Positions 2,471 to 48,601 of a stretch of 64,000 nucleotides of DNA are shown piece after piece. Location: contig NC_063156.1 in NCBI RefSeq assembly GCF_020921035.1, positions 4,836,001 through 4,900,000 of the forward strand, read 5' to 3'. The notes under the pieces were generated by a model. It ran no database searches. It was given only the letters and a program-made list of their open reading frames with translations, and was not told where the DNA came from. Each line of letters begins with the position of its first letter. Within the stretch, counting starts at the first letter, position 1. The translations under genes and the position numbers were made by a program. This stretch comes from Rhodamnia argentea. Its lineage: Eukaryota > Streptophyta > Magnoliopsida > Myrtales > Myrtaceae.

Positions 2471-3580
2471 ACACTTCACACAGTGCCTAGCCGACTTACG
2501 CACAGAGGAAGACCATATGCATGTGTTTGGGCCTTAGGGTTCGCCCCACGTTTGCCGAGGGAAAGACTTGTTCGTGGGCCTATTTACATGGCAAAAGGCA
2601 TTATGGGCTTTTCCATTGGTGTTGGGCCCAATCAATTTATGACGTAAGACCATATTAGAGAAAACAAGAAAAAAAACTCAATTTTGCAAGAGTCGAAATC
2701 GTCCCTTTGTCCCTAGACGGAGGGCATCTTCTGGATTAAGTACTAGTGGGTACTGGATAGGCAGTCACGTTCGACGATGTATGGTCTCTGTGTCTGCTTT
2801 CGCTCCCCTTTGCTTCCTCTGAGCCAGCAGATTTACTTGTGGATGCTATCAACCCCCGCTATAACATTCCCAAACACCTCACAGCATGTCATAACTCTCT
2901 CTCTCTCTCTCTCCCTGAGGCGCAAGAACGTTGACGGGTCGCGGTGATTCAGGGGGCCAGAGATACGGTGAAGATGTTGGTGTGGCTCAATCTGATCATT
3001 ATGTTAGAGGGGAAGCTAGATACTAGCCACTGTGATTTGATTAAGCCGCGTCAGTATCTCATCTTACCCAAGTTACTAGTTTCATTGGCATGTGCAGTTT
3101 ACTTCAGCAGATGGCTTGTATCGCGGCACATCGCATCGGTTTAAGAAGCCAAGCAAGCCCTGTGTCGCAGCTATCTTCCTCGAGTCGATTTCCCTTGCTT
3201 GAATCAGCACCTTTCATTCGGGTAATATCCTCGCCGCCGGTATCTTTTGTGATTTCATATTCGTACGGTTTCTCAAACTTCTTTATCTCCATCACTAAGT
3301 GATGACTAAGTTTTGGTCAATGGAAACTGCAGCAGAGTGAATTCTGAGTGCCTAAAGGTGGTTAGTTCTGGCCTCTTTCCTTTCTTTTTCGGTTCTGTGT
3401 GGAGATTGGTGGCACAAGAGATCATCGACGCGGACCATATTCCTGACATTTACAATTGATACATTGAAATCGAGCCAAGCAAAATGCCTGATGGTCAAGT
3501 GAAACCGGGCCCAATCAATGGGCCTAGGAAGTTCGCTAAAGCCCTGAATGAGCCTGACCCCCAAAATTAACGGTAATTAA
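368..3580. other. Intergenic spacer, no recognisable gene
   Basis: AT-rich, with only short ORFs lacking family features. At about 1480-1680 a phrase of the type 'tcctaaaacttat...' recurs in both orientations, and at 1940-2080 a 'gacacttcaggtccctatttgaaat'-like unit of about 45-50 nt occurs three times; both look like remnants of miniature elements. Simple repeats: an AAT-rich run at about 2223-2256 and (GA)n at 2437-2467. The remainder shows nothing I can assign. Confidence 0.6.
2437..2467. repeat. (GA)n microsatellite
   Basis: Uninterrupted GA dinucleotide run of about 15 units in non-coding sequence. Confidence 0.9.
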
Positions 3581-4725: not shown

Positions 4726-5781
4726 CCATTTTTTTTTATAAAAAAAATATTATTTTGCGTTGAATCAAGTATCCTAATAAGAGTACGTTTACACATATAA
4801 CAGACGTGCCAAATAATTATGTGTTTCACAAAGAGGAAGCAATGCCGAATTACACGAAAAGAAATGAGAAAAGATCAAGAAGCATCAATGACAAAGTTAT
4901 AGAAATAAACGGGATAACGAAGTTTGTTATGGAAGGTGCTTCTTGCACAAATTTACTGTAACAGGTTAATAAAAAACAGAGAGATGCGCGAGAACCAACA
5001 AAACGACTTCATGATTGATATGCCTTTACCGAGGGATATACGCTTAGCAACGAGTCTGTCTAATAACAACGTCACATCAAAAGAGCGAAAATGTCGTAAT
5101 CGTAATTTGTCGTCGTCCCGACATTCCCCCAATCATAGAGAAGAATGTGTTTGATTCCATAACCAAAAAAATTTCACCCATCATGGCTCTTAAGTCCCTG
5201 ATTTGAATGTTCACCATAATTTAAAAAGCAAACTCGTCATTGTTGTACATGCTCATCCCTAATTGCATAAAGATCTCTTTTCCATTCCAATTCAGTCACA
5301 TACATGCACTTAGGTAAGTTGAATAACCTTCATTTTTTCATCGACTCAATACAAAATATATATGAAAATGTGTAGTACCCATAATGCCCCTTGTGATACG
5401 TAAGGGATGCGTGAAGCTTACACATCAGCGGTGGAGGAAGGAAAAAAAAATTGGAAGAACCACGTTGCATGCAAGCCGGAGCGACGCCCCGGCTCTCCCC
5501 CTGAAATCTCTCTCTCCAGAAACATCCTGCAAACAATGAAGAAGAAGAAGACGACAACCACCGTCATATTTCTTTCTCTCTCTCTCTTCTTTCACGTCTC
5601 TCACCTAACTAATCGAGAAGAGACCACAGTCATCACTCAAACCGGAAAACATCGGCAGTGTCGACTTCAACCGTCCCTCCTCCTGAAACCTGAACGCTTT
5701 ACCAGCACCGCATTCGCATACCCAGAAGCATAAAAGGCTCGGAAACACAGGCGAGGATAGGCTAATCGAAGATCCGAGGCG

Positions 5782-8700
5782 ATGGATGGGGGCAGCAGCA
5801 GTCGGGGAGGAGGAGGAGGAGGAGAGGAGCTGCCGAAGAACATGAGCAAGAAGGGGATGTGGACATCGCAGGAGGACGAGATACTGACGGAGTACGTGAG
5901 GAGGCACGGGGAAGGGAACTGGAACGCGGTGCAGAGGCACACGTCGCTGCAGAGGAGCGGCAAGAGCTGCCGGCTGAGGTGGGCCAACCACCTGAGGCCG
6001 GACCTCAAGAAGGGGGCCTTCTCGCCGGAGGAGGAGAGCCTCGTTGTCCAGCTCCACGCCGAGTACGGCAACCGGTGGGCCCACATGGCCTCTCTGGTCA
6101 GTCTTCTCCTCCCTCTTAACCCTTTCCGACCTGCTATCGTGAACTCCCATTCATGGGTGTGTCGTGATTTTTCAGACGCGTTACGAGATTTAACGGTGGA
6201 TTTGGTCTCACTTGTGTTCTTCGGGGCTCATCCCTGCATCTTGCTTTAGTGTTCTTAGTTTACATCGATCCCCACGAGAAACGTGCATGCAGTTTCTTGT
6301 TTATCATTTTCCTTCAAGTGGCGTTTTCTTTTCCTTCTTTTCTTTTACCTTGCTTTGTTAAGGAGGGTTCCGTTTGATTTGATGCTAGGGCTTTTTTTAT
6401 TGAGGTGCATTTGTTTCAAGAAAAATCAAAGATTTGAAAAACATAGTTCAATCGCATTACCGCTCGCAAAAATGTATCGCCGGAAAAATATTTCCATCCA
6501 CAACGTATCTTTTCGTCAACTAATTTTTTCATTTGAATAATCTCTTTTACGGAAACATTTTTTAAATTATGGGTACGAGGGATGACGAGGAAATTGGTTT
6601 TGTGGGGGGTGTCGCCGCTTGCGTTTGATGCCTCTTGCATGGCGTTCTCTCCGTACTTTTTGACATTATGAAACTGTTCTTTTCTTTTTCACTATTTGAT
6701 TACGTATGTCGGGTGCATTTTTTTCCCTTTTTCCGGCGAAACACATGTCTTTTGCGTTCCTTACGTATAGAGTCGTTACAATAAATGAGTCCACAGGCAA
6801 TCAGGCATCACTCGGCAAGTAAAAAGGTTTTACCCCAAATTTAAAGAAAAAAAAACCGACAAGATTTCAAATTTTAGACAATATAAAATGTTTGAGTTTA
6901 ACGTATCACTTACCTTATTGACGTCATCATCCCAAATATTCGCCACATTTCCATCCACCAAGCATATGTCAAACCTTAGCATTGAGTCGCAAATCCTATC
7001 ATCTAGCCAATTTTATCAACAAAACAAAAACCACCAGCTTTTACGTGAAAAAAAAAAGTGGCATTAACTCTAGTTGAAGGTTATGGATTCTTAAGATATT
7101 TGTCGCATATTATCAACGTTTGAATTAAATTCTCTCGTTTGAGTTTAGATAGAAGATATTTGTAATAAAATTCATTTCTCACAAGAGGAAGAACAATAGT
7201 ATTTTGCAGCTACAAATATGCAGTATCGAAAAGAATAAGACATGTACGTAGATATGTCCCTTCAACCGTACAATCTAATATTCTCTTTTTCTCCTTTTTT
7301 TAAAAAAGAAAATTTTTACGATTTACGTATTTTTTTCCTATTTAATTACTTGGATATGCTCATGAAACCGAGGAGCTCGGTCAATTCGTTGTTTAATTAT
7401 GACTTGAATTTTTTTAATTGGGGTTTGACTTGAGTCGTCCACGGCATCTCCGGATGCCGGGAAGAACAGACAACGAGATAAAGAACTTTTGGAACACGAG
7501 GATAAAGAGGATTCAGAGAGCGTATTTACCTATTTACCCCGGCAGATTCCGCCGTGCCCAGAGCACCAAGTGCAGTCCGCCCAACCCCAGCCTCACCGGT
7601 GGCAATGCCCAACCTCCCCCTCCCTTCTTCGGACCTTCGTCGTCGCAGTGGAATTGGCCCGGACCCAATCAATGCCAACGCTATGAGCTCCCGCCGCAAT
7701 CAACCATCGCCGGGCTCCGCCACCATCTGAGCGCCTTCTGCGCCGAATCTCACCTACCATCTAGGGGAGCCAGTGTGGTGCTCCATTCAATCCAAATCAC
7801 ACCGCTGGGGGCAATGGTTCTGAGCTCTGGTGGAGCTTGCCACTTCTTCCCGATGCCGTCCAAGGAGAGTATGAGCAGCATGTTCGGGGACTTGTTGGGA
7901 GAATCCGAAACCCTAGCTCAGAAGGAGATGGAAAAGAACAAGAGGGAGAGTTTGGGCGGCGATGGTGCGGAGGTGGTCGCTTCCTCCTCATTCAGTGAGT
8001 ACTGCACATTGCATGCTTGATATCTCTCTTTCATTCTCATTGAAATGTGGTCTGAATTTCTCTCGCTAAGCAATAGATAGGGAACCAATTGAGGAGCCGA
8101 CAGACCAGATCCATTGCATGGACGATGGCCTGTTGGGGGGTTTGATGGTGGAATCTGAAACCCTAGCTCTGAAGGAGATGGAGAAGTACCTGAGTGAGAG
8201 TTTGAGCGGCTATTGCGCCGAGGCGACTTATCAAGCCACTTCCACCTCGTTCAGCGAGTACACCCAATTCTTCGGGATATCCATAAACTACAAACTACAT
8301 AGTTTATGCTTGATATTTCTTTTTCATTCTCGAGTGCACATTTTGTTTAGTCACGGAGTGTGGTCTAAATCTCTCTCGTTAAGCCACAGGTGGGGAACCA
8401 ACCGAGGAGCCGATAGACGAGATCGAGTGCATGGACAATGGCCTGCTGCGAAATTTGTTGGCGGAATTTGAAACCCTAGCTCCGAAGGAGATGGAGAAAA
8501 ACCATAGCGAGAGTTTGAGCGGCTATTGTGCGGAGGCGGTGTATCAAGCCACTTCCACCTCATTTGGCGAGTACACACAATTCTCCGGTATATCTATAAA
8601 CTACATGATTTATGCTTGATATTTCTCGAGTACACCTTTTGTTTATTTATTGAATCTGGTCTAAATCTCTCTTGCTAAGCCATAGGTGGGGAACCAACCA

Positions 8701-9410
8701 AGGAACCGATAGACGAGATTGAGTGCATGAAAGATGGCCTGTTGGGAAATTTGTTGGCGGAAATTGAAAACCTAGCTCCGAAGGAGATGGAGAAGAACCA
8801 TAGTGAGAGTTTGAGTGGTTATCGCGTCGAGGCGGCATATCAAGCCACTTCCTCCTCATTCAGTGAGTACACACAATTCTCTGGTATATCCATAGACTAC
8901 ATAATTTATGTTTGATATTTCTACTTTTATTCTTGAGTACACCCTTTGTTTATTCCTGAAATGTGGTCTAAATCTCTCATTAAGCCATAGGTGCAGAGCC
9001 AACCGAGGAGCCGATAGCAGAGATTGAGTGCATGGTCGATGGCTTGTTGGGGGATTTGTTGGCAGAATCCGAAACCCTACCTCTGAAGGAGATGGAGAAG
9101 AACAAGATTGAGAGTTCGAGTGGCTATCGTGCCGAGGTGGCGGATCAAGCCACTTCCTCCTCTTTCCGCGATTCCCCAGAATTCTCTGGTATATTCATGA
9201 ACTACATGAGTTATGCTTGATATCTCTTTGTCATTCTCGAGTACACCTTTTTGTTTATTCATGGAATGCGGTATAAATCTCTCTTGTTTTGCCATAGGTC
9301 GGGAACCAACCGAGGAGCCGATGGACAAAATCCAGTGCTTGGACGATGACTTGTCTGGACTCCTCTCCAGCTTCGCTTCGACTTCGACGATGCCATCTCC
9401 GGACTGGTGA
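5782..9410 (+). CDS. GAMYB-like R2R3-MYB transcription factor (subgroup 18) with tandemly duplicated exons
   Basis: Nuclear DNA-binding regulator of the MYB33/65/101 type, a family acting in gibberellin responses, anthers and pollen. Exon 1 (5782-6096) codes R2 and most of R3: KKGMWTSQEDEIL, SGKSCRLRWANHLRPDLKKG and GNRWAHMASL. Family alignment puts exon 2 at 7454-7994; it opens with MPGRTDNEIKNFWNTRIKR and the subgroup motif RAYLPIYP. Next come four duplicated exons (8077-8253, 8390-8587, 8686-8862 or -8883, 8991-9188) and a terminal exon (9298-9410) ending DLSGLLSSFASTSTMPSPDW. All junctions after exon 2 are phase 1. Product about 570 aa, normal for GAMYB. Oddities: the base pair before 7454 is GG, not AG, so the phase-0 intron (1,357 bp, with a MITE-like insertion near 6401) has no canonical acceptor; a nearby AG at 7433-7434 shifts the frame. 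Exon 8077-8253 needs a GC donor. It may be a damaged or alternatively spliced gene; the domain call is firm. Confidence 0.85.
7776..7796 (+). promoter_or_regulatory. Probable miR159 target site in MYB exon 2
   Basis: This 21-nt stretch (TGGTGCTCCATTCAATCCA plus AA) pairs with the conserved plant miR159 as I remember it at 18 of 21 positions. The three mismatches face miRNA positions 12, 18 and 20, so seed and positions 10-11 are fully paired. miR159 control of GAMYB-like mRNAs through a site in this part of the coding region is well established. The position-12 mismatch may weaken cleavage. Confidence 0.75.
8077..9297 (+). repeat. Four-copy tandem array of exon-plus-intron units in the MYB gene
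   Basis: Unit starts at 8077, 8390, 8686 and 8991, with the terminal exon at 9298; spacing is 313, 296, 305 and 307 bp. Each unit has an exon of 177 or 198 nt (59 or 66 codons) and a short intron ending in a CCAYAG-type acceptor. Coded peptides share EPTEEPIDEIEC, GLLxxLLAExETLALKEMEK, SESLSGY and QATSSSFS. The end of exon 2 (from about 7860: MFGDLLGESETLAQKEMEK) is a partial copy and the terminal exon has the EPTEEP start. Because every exon is phase 1-1, gain or skipping of a unit keeps the frame. Confidence 0.85.
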
Positions 9411-9480
9411 TGGCAGAAGACGGCACCGTGTTTATCGGACAGCTATTGGCCGTGGCATGTAGGGCTGCCCACATCACTGA

Positions 9481-9514
<34 letters not shown>

Positions 9515-10075
9515 AACAGCCAAAGAGCTATAGAAGCAGTAACAAATGGAACAACATTCAAGTATGTACGCGTATGTGTGAGATCACCTGATATAGACCG
9601 TGTAAATGATCTTTATGTAGCTTATGGAGAGGACTTTGTTTAGCTCTACTCTACTTAGTCTACTAGACAAATTGGGCGTTAATATTACTGACATTCCGGT
9701 ATTATTAATGTTGTTATTTCGGGTCAGCCAAACTTTCTTGGTTCTCTAATTCATGTTTGTGTCCAAGAACATGTGTTGGCGTGTGACCAAGAAACTAGAA
9801 GGAATAGAAAAAGTACATTTAGTGCATAAACGCTTGTATGATGATCTTGTAAGTTTTGAAGCGATAACCCTTTCTTTTAATGAGGCATTTACGGCTCGGA
9901 ATATCCATTATTTGGATGACTTAGAACACGCTGCAAAGCTCTCAAGATAAACTTGCATACTTTATATCAAGAGGTTCGGTCCAAATACAGCGAAAATACG
10001 AATCAGACGAGTCGATCTCGATCGAATACATCAGAAACTCTCGAAGGTCATCAGGTTCAATCTTGTGACATTCTA
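9411..10075. other. Spacer between convergent MYB and reductase genes
   Basis: 665 bp holding the 3' flanks of both genes. A (CT)n run lies at 9483-9512. A short open stretch on the + strand at 9753-9950 (65 codons) has no family features I recognise. Confidence 0.6.
9483..9512. repeat. (CT)n microsatellite
   Basis: About 15 CT units just downstream of the MYB stop codon, possibly within its 3' UTR. Confidence 0.9.
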
Positions 10076-24256: not shown

Positions 24257-29185
<4,929 letters not shown>

Positions 29186-36688: not shown

Positions 36689-40742
<4,054 letters not shown>

Positions 40743-43664: not shown

Positions 43665-46600
43665 CTAATTGTTCTCAGGCGATAAAGAAGCTCTAATCCT
43701 CTCAACAGTGCAAGCAATCAAATTGTTAACAGTTGCGACCGATCCGAGAGAAAGCTTAGCAGTCGGGACTGAATCGACCAGAATTTGAAACGCGACAGTC
43801 AAGAGAGATCCGTCGGATGCCACTTCGCCTCCGCTTTGCATGGACGAGCCGCCAGGAAGTATGGAGAACCCCGAGGGAAGGAGAGCCACATAGTCGGGAT
43901 CTCCGCCGTTTAGAACCACATTCATCGCGACGATGTCAACCGGAGCATATACCACGAAGGAGCCTGTTGCATCAGTGCAGCTCTCTTGCAATATCAGCAT
44001 GTTGCTTTGGCTTGAATTTGCGCTCTGGTAAACATTCGCAACAAAGGATTTGTTTAGATTCGGTAACTGAAGAATTTAGCTGCAACATTAGGATAGATAC
44101 AAAGCTCACATTTACTCGCAACAGAGACACACAGTTGCCGGTGTCTCGGCCGTTGGCGATGTGTGCCATTTCTTGAACAATTCCTCCATTTGAGAGAATA
44201 TCCCACTGCACAGTAGCAAAAAGATAAAGAGCATCAAATCAACATTACAAGAGCTTCCATTTCGCTCACTCAACAAATTAATCCTAGCAGCATAACCACC
44301 ACACTCGGAAGGACTTCGGATACTTCACAAAACAAAATCTTTGGTTAAGAAAATGAATGATCAATCATTTATGGCTCTATCATCACCCAATTAAGGTGAA
44401 ATGTAACACGATATATTATATAGGACATACTAGTACTAGTAGAATGCATGTTAGCCCAAAATCATGTCTAAGAAATTTTGGACAACGTTAGCTAATTAAG
44501 GCATCAAATGAATCACGGACCAACAACCTGCATCGCTCTCTCCATTATTCTTGCACCCGAATGAGGAATACAAAGGAGGAACCGACAGCATGGACTTGCA
44601 AAATTCACTCGACATGTATTGAGAGAACAATGTCTAGTTGACTGTACCCTGATAAAATCCTTTTTAAGGTAAAAATCTCGAATTTAACATCCTACTAGAA
44701 GAAATTATAAAAAAAAAAAAAAAAACACAGGAAGCTGTACATATTAATGGCAATGGAGAATACCTGCATAGAATTTATTAGAAATCCATTTAAAGAATTC
44801 AAATTGTGTTTCTTAGTCTGTCAAGTTTACCAACCACACCGGCAGATAATTGTTCCATCAAATGTGATATTGAAGAAAGTAAATTCTTCAGATATCTTTC
44901 CATGCATTCCCGTTCTCATACTAAAAACAACATATGCTGTAGACTTGCTAAGGAAAGAAAATTGCATAATGCATATATAAGCTCATAAAATTTTTCCCTA
45001 CCTCGCTTCGAGAATTCTCATCACGAAGGAAATCGAAGACCTGCTTTGGGGAAACTGGCAGCCAGAAGGAAGTGGCAGCGCATAGAACTATTCCCGGAGG
45101 CCTGCCCGGATCATCCACGCTTTTCCGAGTCATCACACGCACGTCGTCTGCTCCGGTTCCGGATAACGTCGTCCATGTATGAGCTGTAGATGCGCTGACT
45201 CCGGCACAAAAGCTTATTACCATCCTCTCAGCCAGCTTCATCATGCTTTTTCTCCCTTCGGGGCTCGTTATGACTTTGGAAAAAAGCAACAAGTCAAAAG
45301 TTTAAACTCGTTCAACCTCAATGCTTCCGAACTGTTACCGCCAAAAAGCTTTGATAGTGTATATTGCATTGTCTAGACTACAACCTTAGCTAACTCAAAA
45401 GCTGAAATATTTTTGAAACCAACGAAATTAACGGTAAGCATAGCCTTGGTGAAAATCAGTACCCACAGACAAAGCACTAGGTCACTATATAAAGCCCTCA
45501 GATCTTAATTGAACCCGAAACTCATGAGAGATACCGATGAAAAATTTAATAAGGGGAAAATATGGGGATAAACAATAAATGGTACGTATGTTTGCTTAAG
45601 AGGAAACTGAAAAATCCTAGACACAAGTAAGAGAGAAACGGTATTCGAGTATTTGTGAGTGTAGGCCAAACAAAAAGAGATACAGAATATCAATTTGCAA
45701 TCAAATGAAAAAAAAAATATCGGCATCCATAGTCAAACAAAAAATCTCGAAAGAGAGTCGAAATAAAAAACAATACCGCCAACATCTCCGCTAGAAATAT
45801 GAGTTGCCATGGCACTTGCGAGCCGTTCACATTGTCGATCTAAGGTAGCGACCCAGCGTTTGGCCCCGAAGGCATGGCCAGAGCCAACAAGCTGCCTGTA
45901 TAGGTTATGCACTCCTCTATGATCTACTTCCACATGCTCAAGCCATGTGACCTACACCGTGGTTTTATTCACTTACCCTTTCTCCTGGAATAATATAGTT
46001 GATAAGAAAATCATAGCAGAGTAAAAGATTCACTATACCCTAGAGTATCCATTCGGCATTTCTTGAATCAGACATCCCGAAGGCTTCCTACGGCATCGGA
46101 CCGCTGGGTTTGGGCGTAAAGTGTCCAAAGAAACATCAACCACTGCCCAAGTCCCGTCGCTATGCTGCTTGCAGTAGCGGACGAAATGTACTTCCCGAGT
46201 AGGAACGAGTGGCGATGGAACTTGAAATTCAGCCGTCACCTGGGAATTCATGAGATCAGTCAATCAAATAATCGGACACGCTAATGGAGGCTAAGTGCTC
46301 ACTAAATGCCCACAGCTCAACTGTCTTCCTTAATTAAGCATAACCACGCTAATTTTGGGCATTGGTTTGATCTACTTAAGTTTGTTTGAGTGGAAACACA
46401 TATGAGTCATACGAATTGAGTGCACATACATACCACTTGCAAGGCTCCGTTGTAATTCCCTGCCACCCCAGTTGATAGAACTTCCAAAGTCATAGCTCTT
46501 GAGACAATGCTTGAGAAAATAGTGGACCACTGGCTCTGCAATCATATAGCATTAGCAAATGAATGATTGAAAGGTAATTTGAACGACCAATTTTGCTCAG

Positions 46601-48601
46601 TTTAAATGAACTTGGCAACATTGTGGATATCTAGAAGTATCAATGTGGCCAATTAAAGAGGTAAACCCTACCACATCCATGAGAATCTCAACAAGATTGA
46701 TGTGATTCATGATGATGACCCCAGTTTCTCGCGAGGCTTCACGCTTAAATCCCGTGGGGTTTGTTGTGATCCCACGAGCAAATGCACGAATGTACTCGTC
46801 TTCATTTAGCACGCTTGAAGTGCCGTCAAGTCCCATAGTCCACATGGGCTCTCCCACCTGCGCCATTCTGATAAGTTCCTCCATGGCTGCCACCGCCAGC
46901 TCGATTATGATCGGCTTCTCGGCTTCAGTCGGTGCAGTGATTGATCGGAAAAGGTCCCCGCACCCATAAACATCGCCCCCAACACCTGATTGGCCCGAGA
47001 AGCTTCCGAAACCAAGATCAAGTGGGCGAGGAGGGACTGGAGAAGAAAGAGGAGGGTAGTTTCCTATCGGCTTGCCTACATACCTTGCAGCTATTGCCGA
47101 TATCCTATCAATCTGAGACCAAACCAAGAATCAAGATATAGTTAAGTAAAAGGTAATCTTTAGCTGAACATAGTTTTGCGTACTGATATTACAATACTCG
47201 TCAAGTTATCCACTACGCTGCTTGCAAAAACACTACTTCCACAAGCGGTACTGGATTTCGAACGGAGTAACAACAGTCTGACCTCACTTTTTCTCAAGTG
47301 CATAGTCGTCATCAACTCGGACACTGCATTCGGAAGACAAAACTTCTGTCCATCTCTAATAAAAACCTAGAAAATTACTTTACCTCTTCTCTTAGACGGG
47401 CATTTTCCAGCCTCAAGTGATGTTCATCAAAGGACATCTCTCCTATGGCAGTTGGGCCGCCACAGTTGGGACAGGAAGCGCTATTGAGCGCTTCTCGGTA
47501 CCTCATGTTATCTGCCCGGAGCTTCTCATTCTCGGTGCGGAGCTGTGTGTTCTCGTGGCGCTCATGTTGGGTCTGAGAGGAAATCATTAGAGTGAATTCA
47601 GATCTTAGCAAAATATAGGAAAAAGTATAAGATCATATGCCCAGTTGGTAGCCATTGTCGTAGATCCATGCACTTTCCGTAGTCCGAAGGCGGGATTTAT
47701 CTTTCCTTAATTCAGGTTTAGGTTCATCGTATTAGATTCATGGTGGCCATGATCAGCTAGTGCAGGGCCAACGTCAATCTCCCGTAAGTTGTAAGGTCCA
47801 AAGGTTTCCAAAGGCAAAATGCAGCGAACAATTATTCAAGATAACCACGCGAACCTTAAAACTTCTAAGTATCTTTCTTGATTACTCTAACATGCGATAC
47901 GGGAAATGTACATAAGGGCTTTCTAAGGTATATATACTTGTATTCTGGAGACTTCTCATCGATCTCCACCGTTAGATTGGTTGAAGATCAACCGTTGTGA
48001 TTAGAGGTGTTCTTCTATTATTACACGTTGTTACTCTTATAATTTTTAAAATTTTGAGGGGCTCAGTAAGGAGTTCATTTTAAATACCTTCACCTTTTTT
48101 TTTGGGGGTGGTTATGTAATTACCTTCATTTGAGTGCGCTTGTTTTGGAACCAGAACTTGACTTGCAAAGGCTCAAGCCCTAATTGACGCCCCAGTTCCT
48201 TCCTTTGCTTATCATCCGGGTGCGGGAACTCCTTGAAAAATCTAAACCCAAAAATAAAAATAAAAATTGGTGAAGTCATTAAGAAACATGTGAAAAATAA
48301 AAATCATTTTTGAGAGGAGAAAAAAAAAACCACAATTCAGGGGCAAAACTCACGCTTCCATTTCTTGAATCTGGTGCTGGGTGTGACGATGGTAGCGCTT
48401 CTTCTTCCGGCGCTCATCCTGCAGATCGTCGCCGGAGGTGGGCCCCTCGTGGTTGTCGCTGCCGGACTTGTTGCTGTCGAAGTCGTCGTCTCGGAGGCGA
48501 GCGAGCTCACTCTCCGAAGGGTTCCCCGCCATGTCTAGAGGGTGAAGCTGCGGACCGCCGCCGTCGCCATCCATCAAGTTTTGCTGGAACACGTCCATCA
48601 T
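43665..48601 (-). CDS. HDG2: HD-ZIP class IV homeodomain-START transcription factor, HDG2-like
   Basis: Nuclear regulator of epidermal identity; Arabidopsis HDG2, the closest member by memory, promotes stomatal and trichome differentiation. Ten minus-strand coding exons (48354-48601, 48124-48241, 47384-47572, 46672-47112, 46434-46535, 46039-46239, 45777-45951, 45002-45273, 44110-44205, 43665-44024) join cleanly to 733 aa. Order: acidic N-terminus from [10 protein letters not shown]; homeodomain about 65-122 ([27 protein letters not shown]); leucine zipper-loop-zipper with [25 protein letters not shown] domain about 230-470 ([74 protein letters not shown]); C-terminal HD-SAD region ([59 protein letters not shown]). 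HDG2 rather than PDF2/ATML1 is favoured by [34 protein letters not shown] and the short C-terminal linker. The upstream in-frame codons before the first ATG lack another ATG. Noncoding leader exons are possible. Confidence 0.93.

Follow-up and report, generated by a model that had tools for sequence, protein, structure and literature searches.

The window, a 64,000-nucleotide stretch of the Rhodamnia argentea genome (contig C7, 4836001-4900000), carries an R2R3-type MYB gene in which four additional exons are predicted between exon 2 and the last exon; a MIR171 precursor lies upstream of it, and two glutamate-receptor-like genes and a PDF2-like HD-ZIP class IV gene lie downstream (Table 1). 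Pfam recognizes Myb_DNA-binding in two stretches within exon 1 (E 2.4e-25), and the share of R3 carried by exon 2 gives, by itself, a weak match below the cut-off (E 0.004). The R2R3 domain is present, but its two parts sit in exons joined by a noncanonical junction. Because the R3 intron ends in GG, we file the gene as GAMYB-like by descent and not as a proven working member of that family.

Table 1. Predicted features of the MYB gene, its neighbors in the window, and the extra exon of one paralogue
Feature	Positions	Strand	Evidence and remarks
MIR171 precursor, upstream of MYB gene	2963-3070	+	Rfam RF00643, 49.6 bits (cut-off, 48)
Exon 1, coding part: MYB R2 and first part of R3, 105 aa	5782-6096	+	Pfam; phase-0 end CTG|GTCAGT
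R3 intron, 1,357 nt	6097-7453	+	Starts GT; ends GG at 7452-7453
Exon 2: remaining R3 (PGRTDNEIKNFWNTR), BOX1-like QRAYLPIYP, miR159 site, first core copy	7454-7994	+	Donor A|GTGAGT, phase 1
miR159 target site	7776-7796	+	Codon register as in paralogues L024, L025, and L026 (by eye)
Exon 2 tail, partial copy homologous to the units' 3' part	7880-7993	+	Repeat families, exon alignment
Unit exon 1, 198 nt	8077-8274	+	Acceptor TAG; GG at the donor position used by units 2 to 4
Unit exon 2, 198 nt	8390-8587	+	AG / G|GTATAT
Unit exon 3, 198 nt	8686-8883	+	AG / G|GTATAT
Unit exon 4, 198 nt	8991-9188	+	AG / G|GTATAT
Last exon, coding part	9298-9410	+	Ends PDW + TGA; head corresponds to the units' 5' part
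Glutamate-receptor-like gene 1	25156-26565	+	ANF_receptor, E 1.5e-78
Glutamate-receptor-like gene 2	37302-38795	+	ANF_receptor, E 2.5e-79
PDF2-like HD-ZIP class IV gene	43668-47130	-	PDF2_C and START matches
Paralogue L026, predicted extra exon, 168 nt, phase 1-1	6464-6631 of the L026 stretch, on contig C2 (oriented 2871-3038)	-	Between exon 2 and last exon

With genes of the GAMYB and GAMYB-like kind (MYB33/65/101), which are miR159 targets, the window gene shares an R2R3 domain, a BOX1-like motif after R3, a miR159 site, a GLLxxLxxE-type segment in exon 2, and a phase-1 last intron. The sequence-only reading that preceded this analysis had called the gene GAMYB-like, and its R2R3 domain, its alignment with five paralogues, and its miR159 site bear out that descent. 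The paralogues (L023 to L027), with E values of 7.2e-40 to 1.8e-32, rank directly below the window's own match in a genome search with exon 1 that gave at least 20 matches at E ≤ 1e-20 with 150 of 312 candidates scored; the next match has an E value of 9.4e-27. At R2R3 positions invariant in the other genes, the window gene differs at 4 of 58, and each paralogue differs at 0 to 7 of 54 to 61. The BOX1 motif reported to follow R3 in GAMYB is QRaGLPxYPx(E/S) (PMC8495421); the window version, QRAYLPIYPGR, matches at most positions, the exceptions being the G and the final E/S. Candidate BOX2- and BOX3-like segments were noted in the comparison with the paralogues. The acceptor of the last intron is in phase 1 in all five paralogues, as is, by eye, the exon 2 donor in the four that were read. 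The window gene departs from these relatives in having four extra exons where four of the five have one last intron, as well as in its short exon 2, its C terminus at PDW, and its R3 intron without AG. All three inner branches of a tree of the GAMYB-like genes (six rows) were left open, nine other MYB loci intended as an outgroup having been left out of it. A comparison of exon 1 with viral contigs yielded 427 pattern matches, none of them confirmed, as expected.

Tandem Repeats Finder places a tandem array at 8044 to 9348, with a period of 296 nt, 4.3 copies, 80% matches, and a score of 1,445. Repeat families (D1 to D3) give four copies of 296 nt plus a partial copy at either flank, one in the exon 2 tail (7878 to 7976) and one that begins in the last intron and reaches into the last-exon head (9249 to 9359). 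The units also emerged from an in-register test, in which each AG of the gene region was scored by matching the 35 nt that follow it to the first 35 nt of the last exon. Among the 257 AGs tested at about 5700 to 9700, the last exon itself being excluded, the best four were the unit acceptors, scoring 31, 28, 27, and 25 of 35 nt; the next AG scored 19. These results uphold the sequence-only reading in its claim of four exon-plus-intron units, with partial copies at the end of exon 2 and the start of the last exon.

That reading had itself named an assembly artefact among the findings that would undo it. A false expansion of a single unit is extremely improbable: we found no point in its support, and the copies differ by 13 to 22% in their exons and 12 to 20% in their introns (pairwise distances, 0.128 to 0.221 and 0.122 to 0.204), with intron indels in addition. 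A recent assembly error is therefore unlikely, and the earlier statement that the copies had diverged at the nucleotide level stands. The array query matches this locus alone in the 346.7-Mb genome (74 contigs), and the protein encoded by a unit finds six matches in the genome at E ≤ 10 (seven candidates, all scored), every one of them inside the gene and the last with an E value of 0.495. A Pfam search with two of the four units returned no match for unit 1 and, for unit 2, one match below the cut-off (E 0.087) that we take as chance. Each unit has 13 to 16 D or E and 3 to 5 K or R among its 65 residues, together with leucine clusters, and GC content is 0.48 to 0.53 in the unit exons and 0.30 to 0.39 in the introns. 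The Leu/Glu-rich core described earlier is indeed repeated in the units, but it is not new, as it matches exon 2 segments in four of the five paralogues (GLLDALVYES, GLLEAVVYEA, ALLDALFEEA, and GLLEDLLEEA); in the fifth, L027, no segment was matched to it.

As had been proposed, every unit exon is open and of phase 1-1, beginning with the last 2 nt of a codon and ending with the first nucleotide of another. The unit introns measure 115, 98, 107, and 109 nt (429 nt in total). Acceptors are AG in all four units, and the corresponding donors are GT in three. The units thus neighbor one another, are homologous, share the same phase, and have splice sites of their own, the pattern of tandem exon duplication. 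Unit 3 also keeps an upstream donor, A|GTGAGT after 8862, use of which gives a 177-nt, frame-neutral exon. Unit 1 has GG where units 2 to 4 have their GT donor and GC at the upstream donor; its best phase-1 GT, after 8301, scores 0.37, versus 6.6 to 6.7 for units 2 to 4 and 1.97 for the exon 2 donor, in a score based on splice site frequencies. Since this sole phase-1 GT donor is weak, inclusion of unit 1 is doubtful, and we read the unit as decaying and as probably either skipped or used inefficiently. The most likely end of exon 2 is at 7994 (A|GTGAGT), and, judged from the splice sites, the most likely chain runs from exon 2 through units 2 to 4 to the last exon. Splicing past all units still gives an in-frame product, in agreement with the earlier suggestion that skipping is frame neutral. 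Translation of retained introns as coding sequence was rejected, there being a TGA at 8018 directly after exon 2.

The unit exon is an in-frame fusion of two parts of the gene, the head of the last exon (its first ∼48 nt) and the tail of exon 2, with the switch at offsets 42 to 54. In 12-nt windows at offsets 0 to 36, identity of the units is 0.67 to 0.92 with the last exon versus 0.10 to 0.42 with exon 2; at offsets of 54 and beyond, it is 0.69 to 0.96 with exon 2 versus 0.15 to 0.33 with the last exon. The founding exchange thus joined the last exon near 9348 (DDDLSGLL) to exon 2 near 7880 (MFGDLLGE), and both exchange points encode a short acidic, leucine-containing stretch. A single in-frame exchange of this kind across a phase-1 intron accounts for the phases of all units: with the phase-1 last intron of the family included in what was copied, every exon gained has 66 codons and is frame neutral. 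The shared 1-1 phase thus does not amount to four independent coincidences, because the copies inherit one phase-1 intron; an in-frame join was needed at the founding event alone. Thereafter, unequal exchange from unit to unit could raise or lower their number. This hybrid origin goes beyond the sequence-only reading, as do the miR159 site, the GG end of the R3 intron, and the loss of the unit 1 donor.

The same intron appears to have been altered in a second gene. The C terminus of the family had been described as normally single copy, which describes four of the five paralogues but not L026, where a second exon with a repeated head is predicted. When each paralogue was searched with its own last-exon head, the best scores in L023, L024, L025, and L027 were 15 to 16, and nothing stood out. 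In L026, the position at oriented 2871 matches the last-exon head at 25 of 35 nt, the next best position reaching 17, and none of 100,000 shuffles reached 25 (exon heads, ANLGHSHSEIDT versus GNLGHSTLDIDT). Two 260-nt stretches of L026 compared alone align over 43 nt at 74% (E 1.8e-4); the pair is absent from a general self-BLAST of the 3.9 kb at E ≤ 1e-3. Like the window gene, L026 would carry an additional phase 1-1 exon before the last exon whose head repeats the last-exon head; unlike it, L026 has one predicted extra exon instead of four. No exon 2 tail was seen in this extra exon, and we therefore take it to represent a separate event at the same intron, which would have been hit at least twice.

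A miR159-binding site is reported as a feature of GAMYB genes (PMC6724108). The site in exon 2 scores 3.5 against miR159a and 3.0 against a second miR159 of the same genome, a one-base variant that pairs with it at only two mismatches; 50 base-shuffled versions of the gene gave nothing better than 8. Pairing is perfect at miRNA positions 1 to 11, while the peptide over the site is altered (VVLHSIQI(T) here versus the ELPSLQ type), which we read as selection on the RNA. Among the paralogues, L024 to L026 have sites scoring 3.5 to 4.5, and L023 (9.0) and L027 (8.0) are without a good site. In Eucalyptus grandis, Eucgr.G03183 is named as a predicted miR159a target (PMC4696225) and, by its chromosome name, is a candidate for the orthologous locus. 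Two miR159 hairpins, L042 and L043, lie ∼10 kb apart at 23.72 to 23.73 Mb on the contig that carries the MYB gene; one encodes the common miR159a and the other a one-base variant. An Rfam MIR159 search gave 30 rows, 17 of them above the cut-off and some representing one hairpin on both strands. The first eight loci inspected were MIR319-like or variant, and two of eight further stretches contain miR159 proper.

All five paralogues have AG where the R3 intron of the window gene has GG, and a canonical intron at MAxx|xPGR is lacking. Neither of the two nearest alternative AGs, which lie directly ahead of 7435 and directly past the normal junction, is in frame with the usual donor. Sixteen frame-keeping GT-AG pairings that reach NEIKNFW were found among donors at ∼5960 to 6300 and acceptors at 7300 to 7490; each drops or adds R3 residues, and none is normal. 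By eye, the T-rich tract of the paralogues is also missing before the junction. With its R3 intron lacking a terminal AG, this allele may now yield little intact DNA-binding protein. As a separate observation, a short palindrome (CGGCATC..GATGCCG) can be seen by eye across the GG end of the intron, at ∼7442 to 7460.

One explanation for these features could be that the gene is a young pseudogene: its array was once coding, but with the acceptor of R3 and the donor of unit 1 gone, it now decays without function. In addition to the GG intron end, the out-of-frame AGs, and the GG at the unit 1 donor, the C terminus fits this explanation, as the frame stops right after PDW (9408 to 9410) and L023, L024, and L025 run on past the corresponding DW. 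We nevertheless consider it somewhat unlikely that function has been lost altogether. The frames read, from exons 1 and 2 through all four units to the last exon, are free of internal stops, the changes in R2R3 are not in excess of those in the paralogues, and the miR159 site is preserved; gene loss, if real, must therefore be recent. The otherwise intact MYB domain and the intact miR159 site would also fit a fully active gene in which the GG at 7452 to 7453 is an assembly error or a rare allele. This we hold to be unlikely, as the array query finds no second haplotype in the genome, the T-rich tract is missing along with the AG, and unit 1 has separately lost its donor.

Several comparisons bear on whether the units have been under selection. 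The four 198-nt exons contain no indels, and the introns contain five distinct gap intervals (P = 0.0054, on the assumption of random indel placement across 792 nt of exon and 429 nt of intron, with intervals in one MAFFT alignment counted as events). Relative to 20,000 neutral simulations, replacement codon changes are reduced (44 versus 52.4 expected; P = 0.014), the absence of a stop from every unit has a P value of 0.067, and stops and replacements jointly give a P value of 0.0012; the simulations follow a star-shaped model from the consensus, in which a change common to several units may be counted repeatedly. dN/dS among the units, a comparison that the sequence-only reading had proposed, is 0.19 to 0.52 over all six pairs. 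Unit dN is close to intron divergence, and since the unit exons are no more alike than the introns, part of the low dN/dS is due to high dS. Between the exon 2 tail and the four units, dN/dS is 0.45 to 0.75, and one of the four comparisons over the 48-nt last-exon head (that with unit 2) has a dN above dS. Private changes at codon positions 1/2/3 number, for units 1 to 4 in turn, 7/8/8, 4/1/4, 5/2/9, and 10/9/12; those of unit 1 are without codon position bias. Taken as sequence comparisons, these data provide moderate evidence of selection on the units. The DNA-binding domain shows no excess decay. Real constraint in the past is thus probable, and unless it is an error, the splice change at R3 is recent.

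The similarity of exon and intron distances is also what would be expected if the array were a neutral by-product of unequal exchange that, translated or not, has no effect on protein function. GAMYB C termini are reported to vary greatly while function is conserved, distant homologues still complementing (PMC6724108), which is consistent with that idea. We think it possible but doubtful, given the constant exon length, the absence of stops, and a number of replacements below the neutral simulations. With moderate confidence, we favor an R2R3-MYB gene of GAMYB descent in which the region of the last intron was amplified into an old array of exons and which may now be impaired.

If this R2R3-MYB gene is transcribed as read, splicing through units 2 to 4 would add three to four acidic, leucine-bearing modules at the C terminus. 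In the lily GAMYB LoMYB33, the activating part is reported to lie within the C-terminal 90 aa (PMC8495421). The added modules could act as repeated activating modules that alter the strength of activation, and because skipping any unit leaves the frame intact, skipping or exchange of units could tune that strength. A broader proposal is that the C-terminal activating part of a miR159-controlled MYB is a row of symmetric, individually skippable hybrid exons, that the number of units spliced in, along with unequal exchange between plants, sets activation strength, and that such exons arise recurrently at the phase-1 last intron of GAMYB genes; as a whole, we regard this proposal as quite unlikely.

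The nearest plant case in the literature surveyed is that of the Prunus TNL resistance genes Ma and RMja, which are described as having five repeated post-LRR exons that arose by exon duplication (PMC6141779). The Prunus genes are alike in having tandem C-terminal exon copies gained and lost by duplication; they differ in encoding an immune receptor with repeated post-LRR domains, whereas the exon repeated here fuses parts of two exons and belongs to a transcription factor gene. Tandem-duplicated exons as presented through a reference cited in PMC2674458 are likewise adjacent, homologous, of equal phase, and skippable or swappable; in contrast, the symmetric 66-codon exons described here could all be retained together instead of being used in a mutually exclusive way. 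Among the matches listed in the openly licensed literature, we found no GAMYB gene with a comparable exon array.

Should the gene be transcribed as read, one in-frame exchange between neighboring exons would have made a phase-1 intron a source of frame-neutral exons, and this gain would fall in a transcription factor family described as strongly conserved in function. The paralogue L026 suggests repeated hits on this intron, and the units would form a natural series in which to ask whether plant activators are tuned by how many C-terminal modules they carry. If the gene is instead dying, it would exemplify the end of such an array, with a unit donor and a core splice site lost and the miRNA site still readable. 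Elsewhere in the window, the two glutamate-receptor-like genes run in the same direction and form a local pair.
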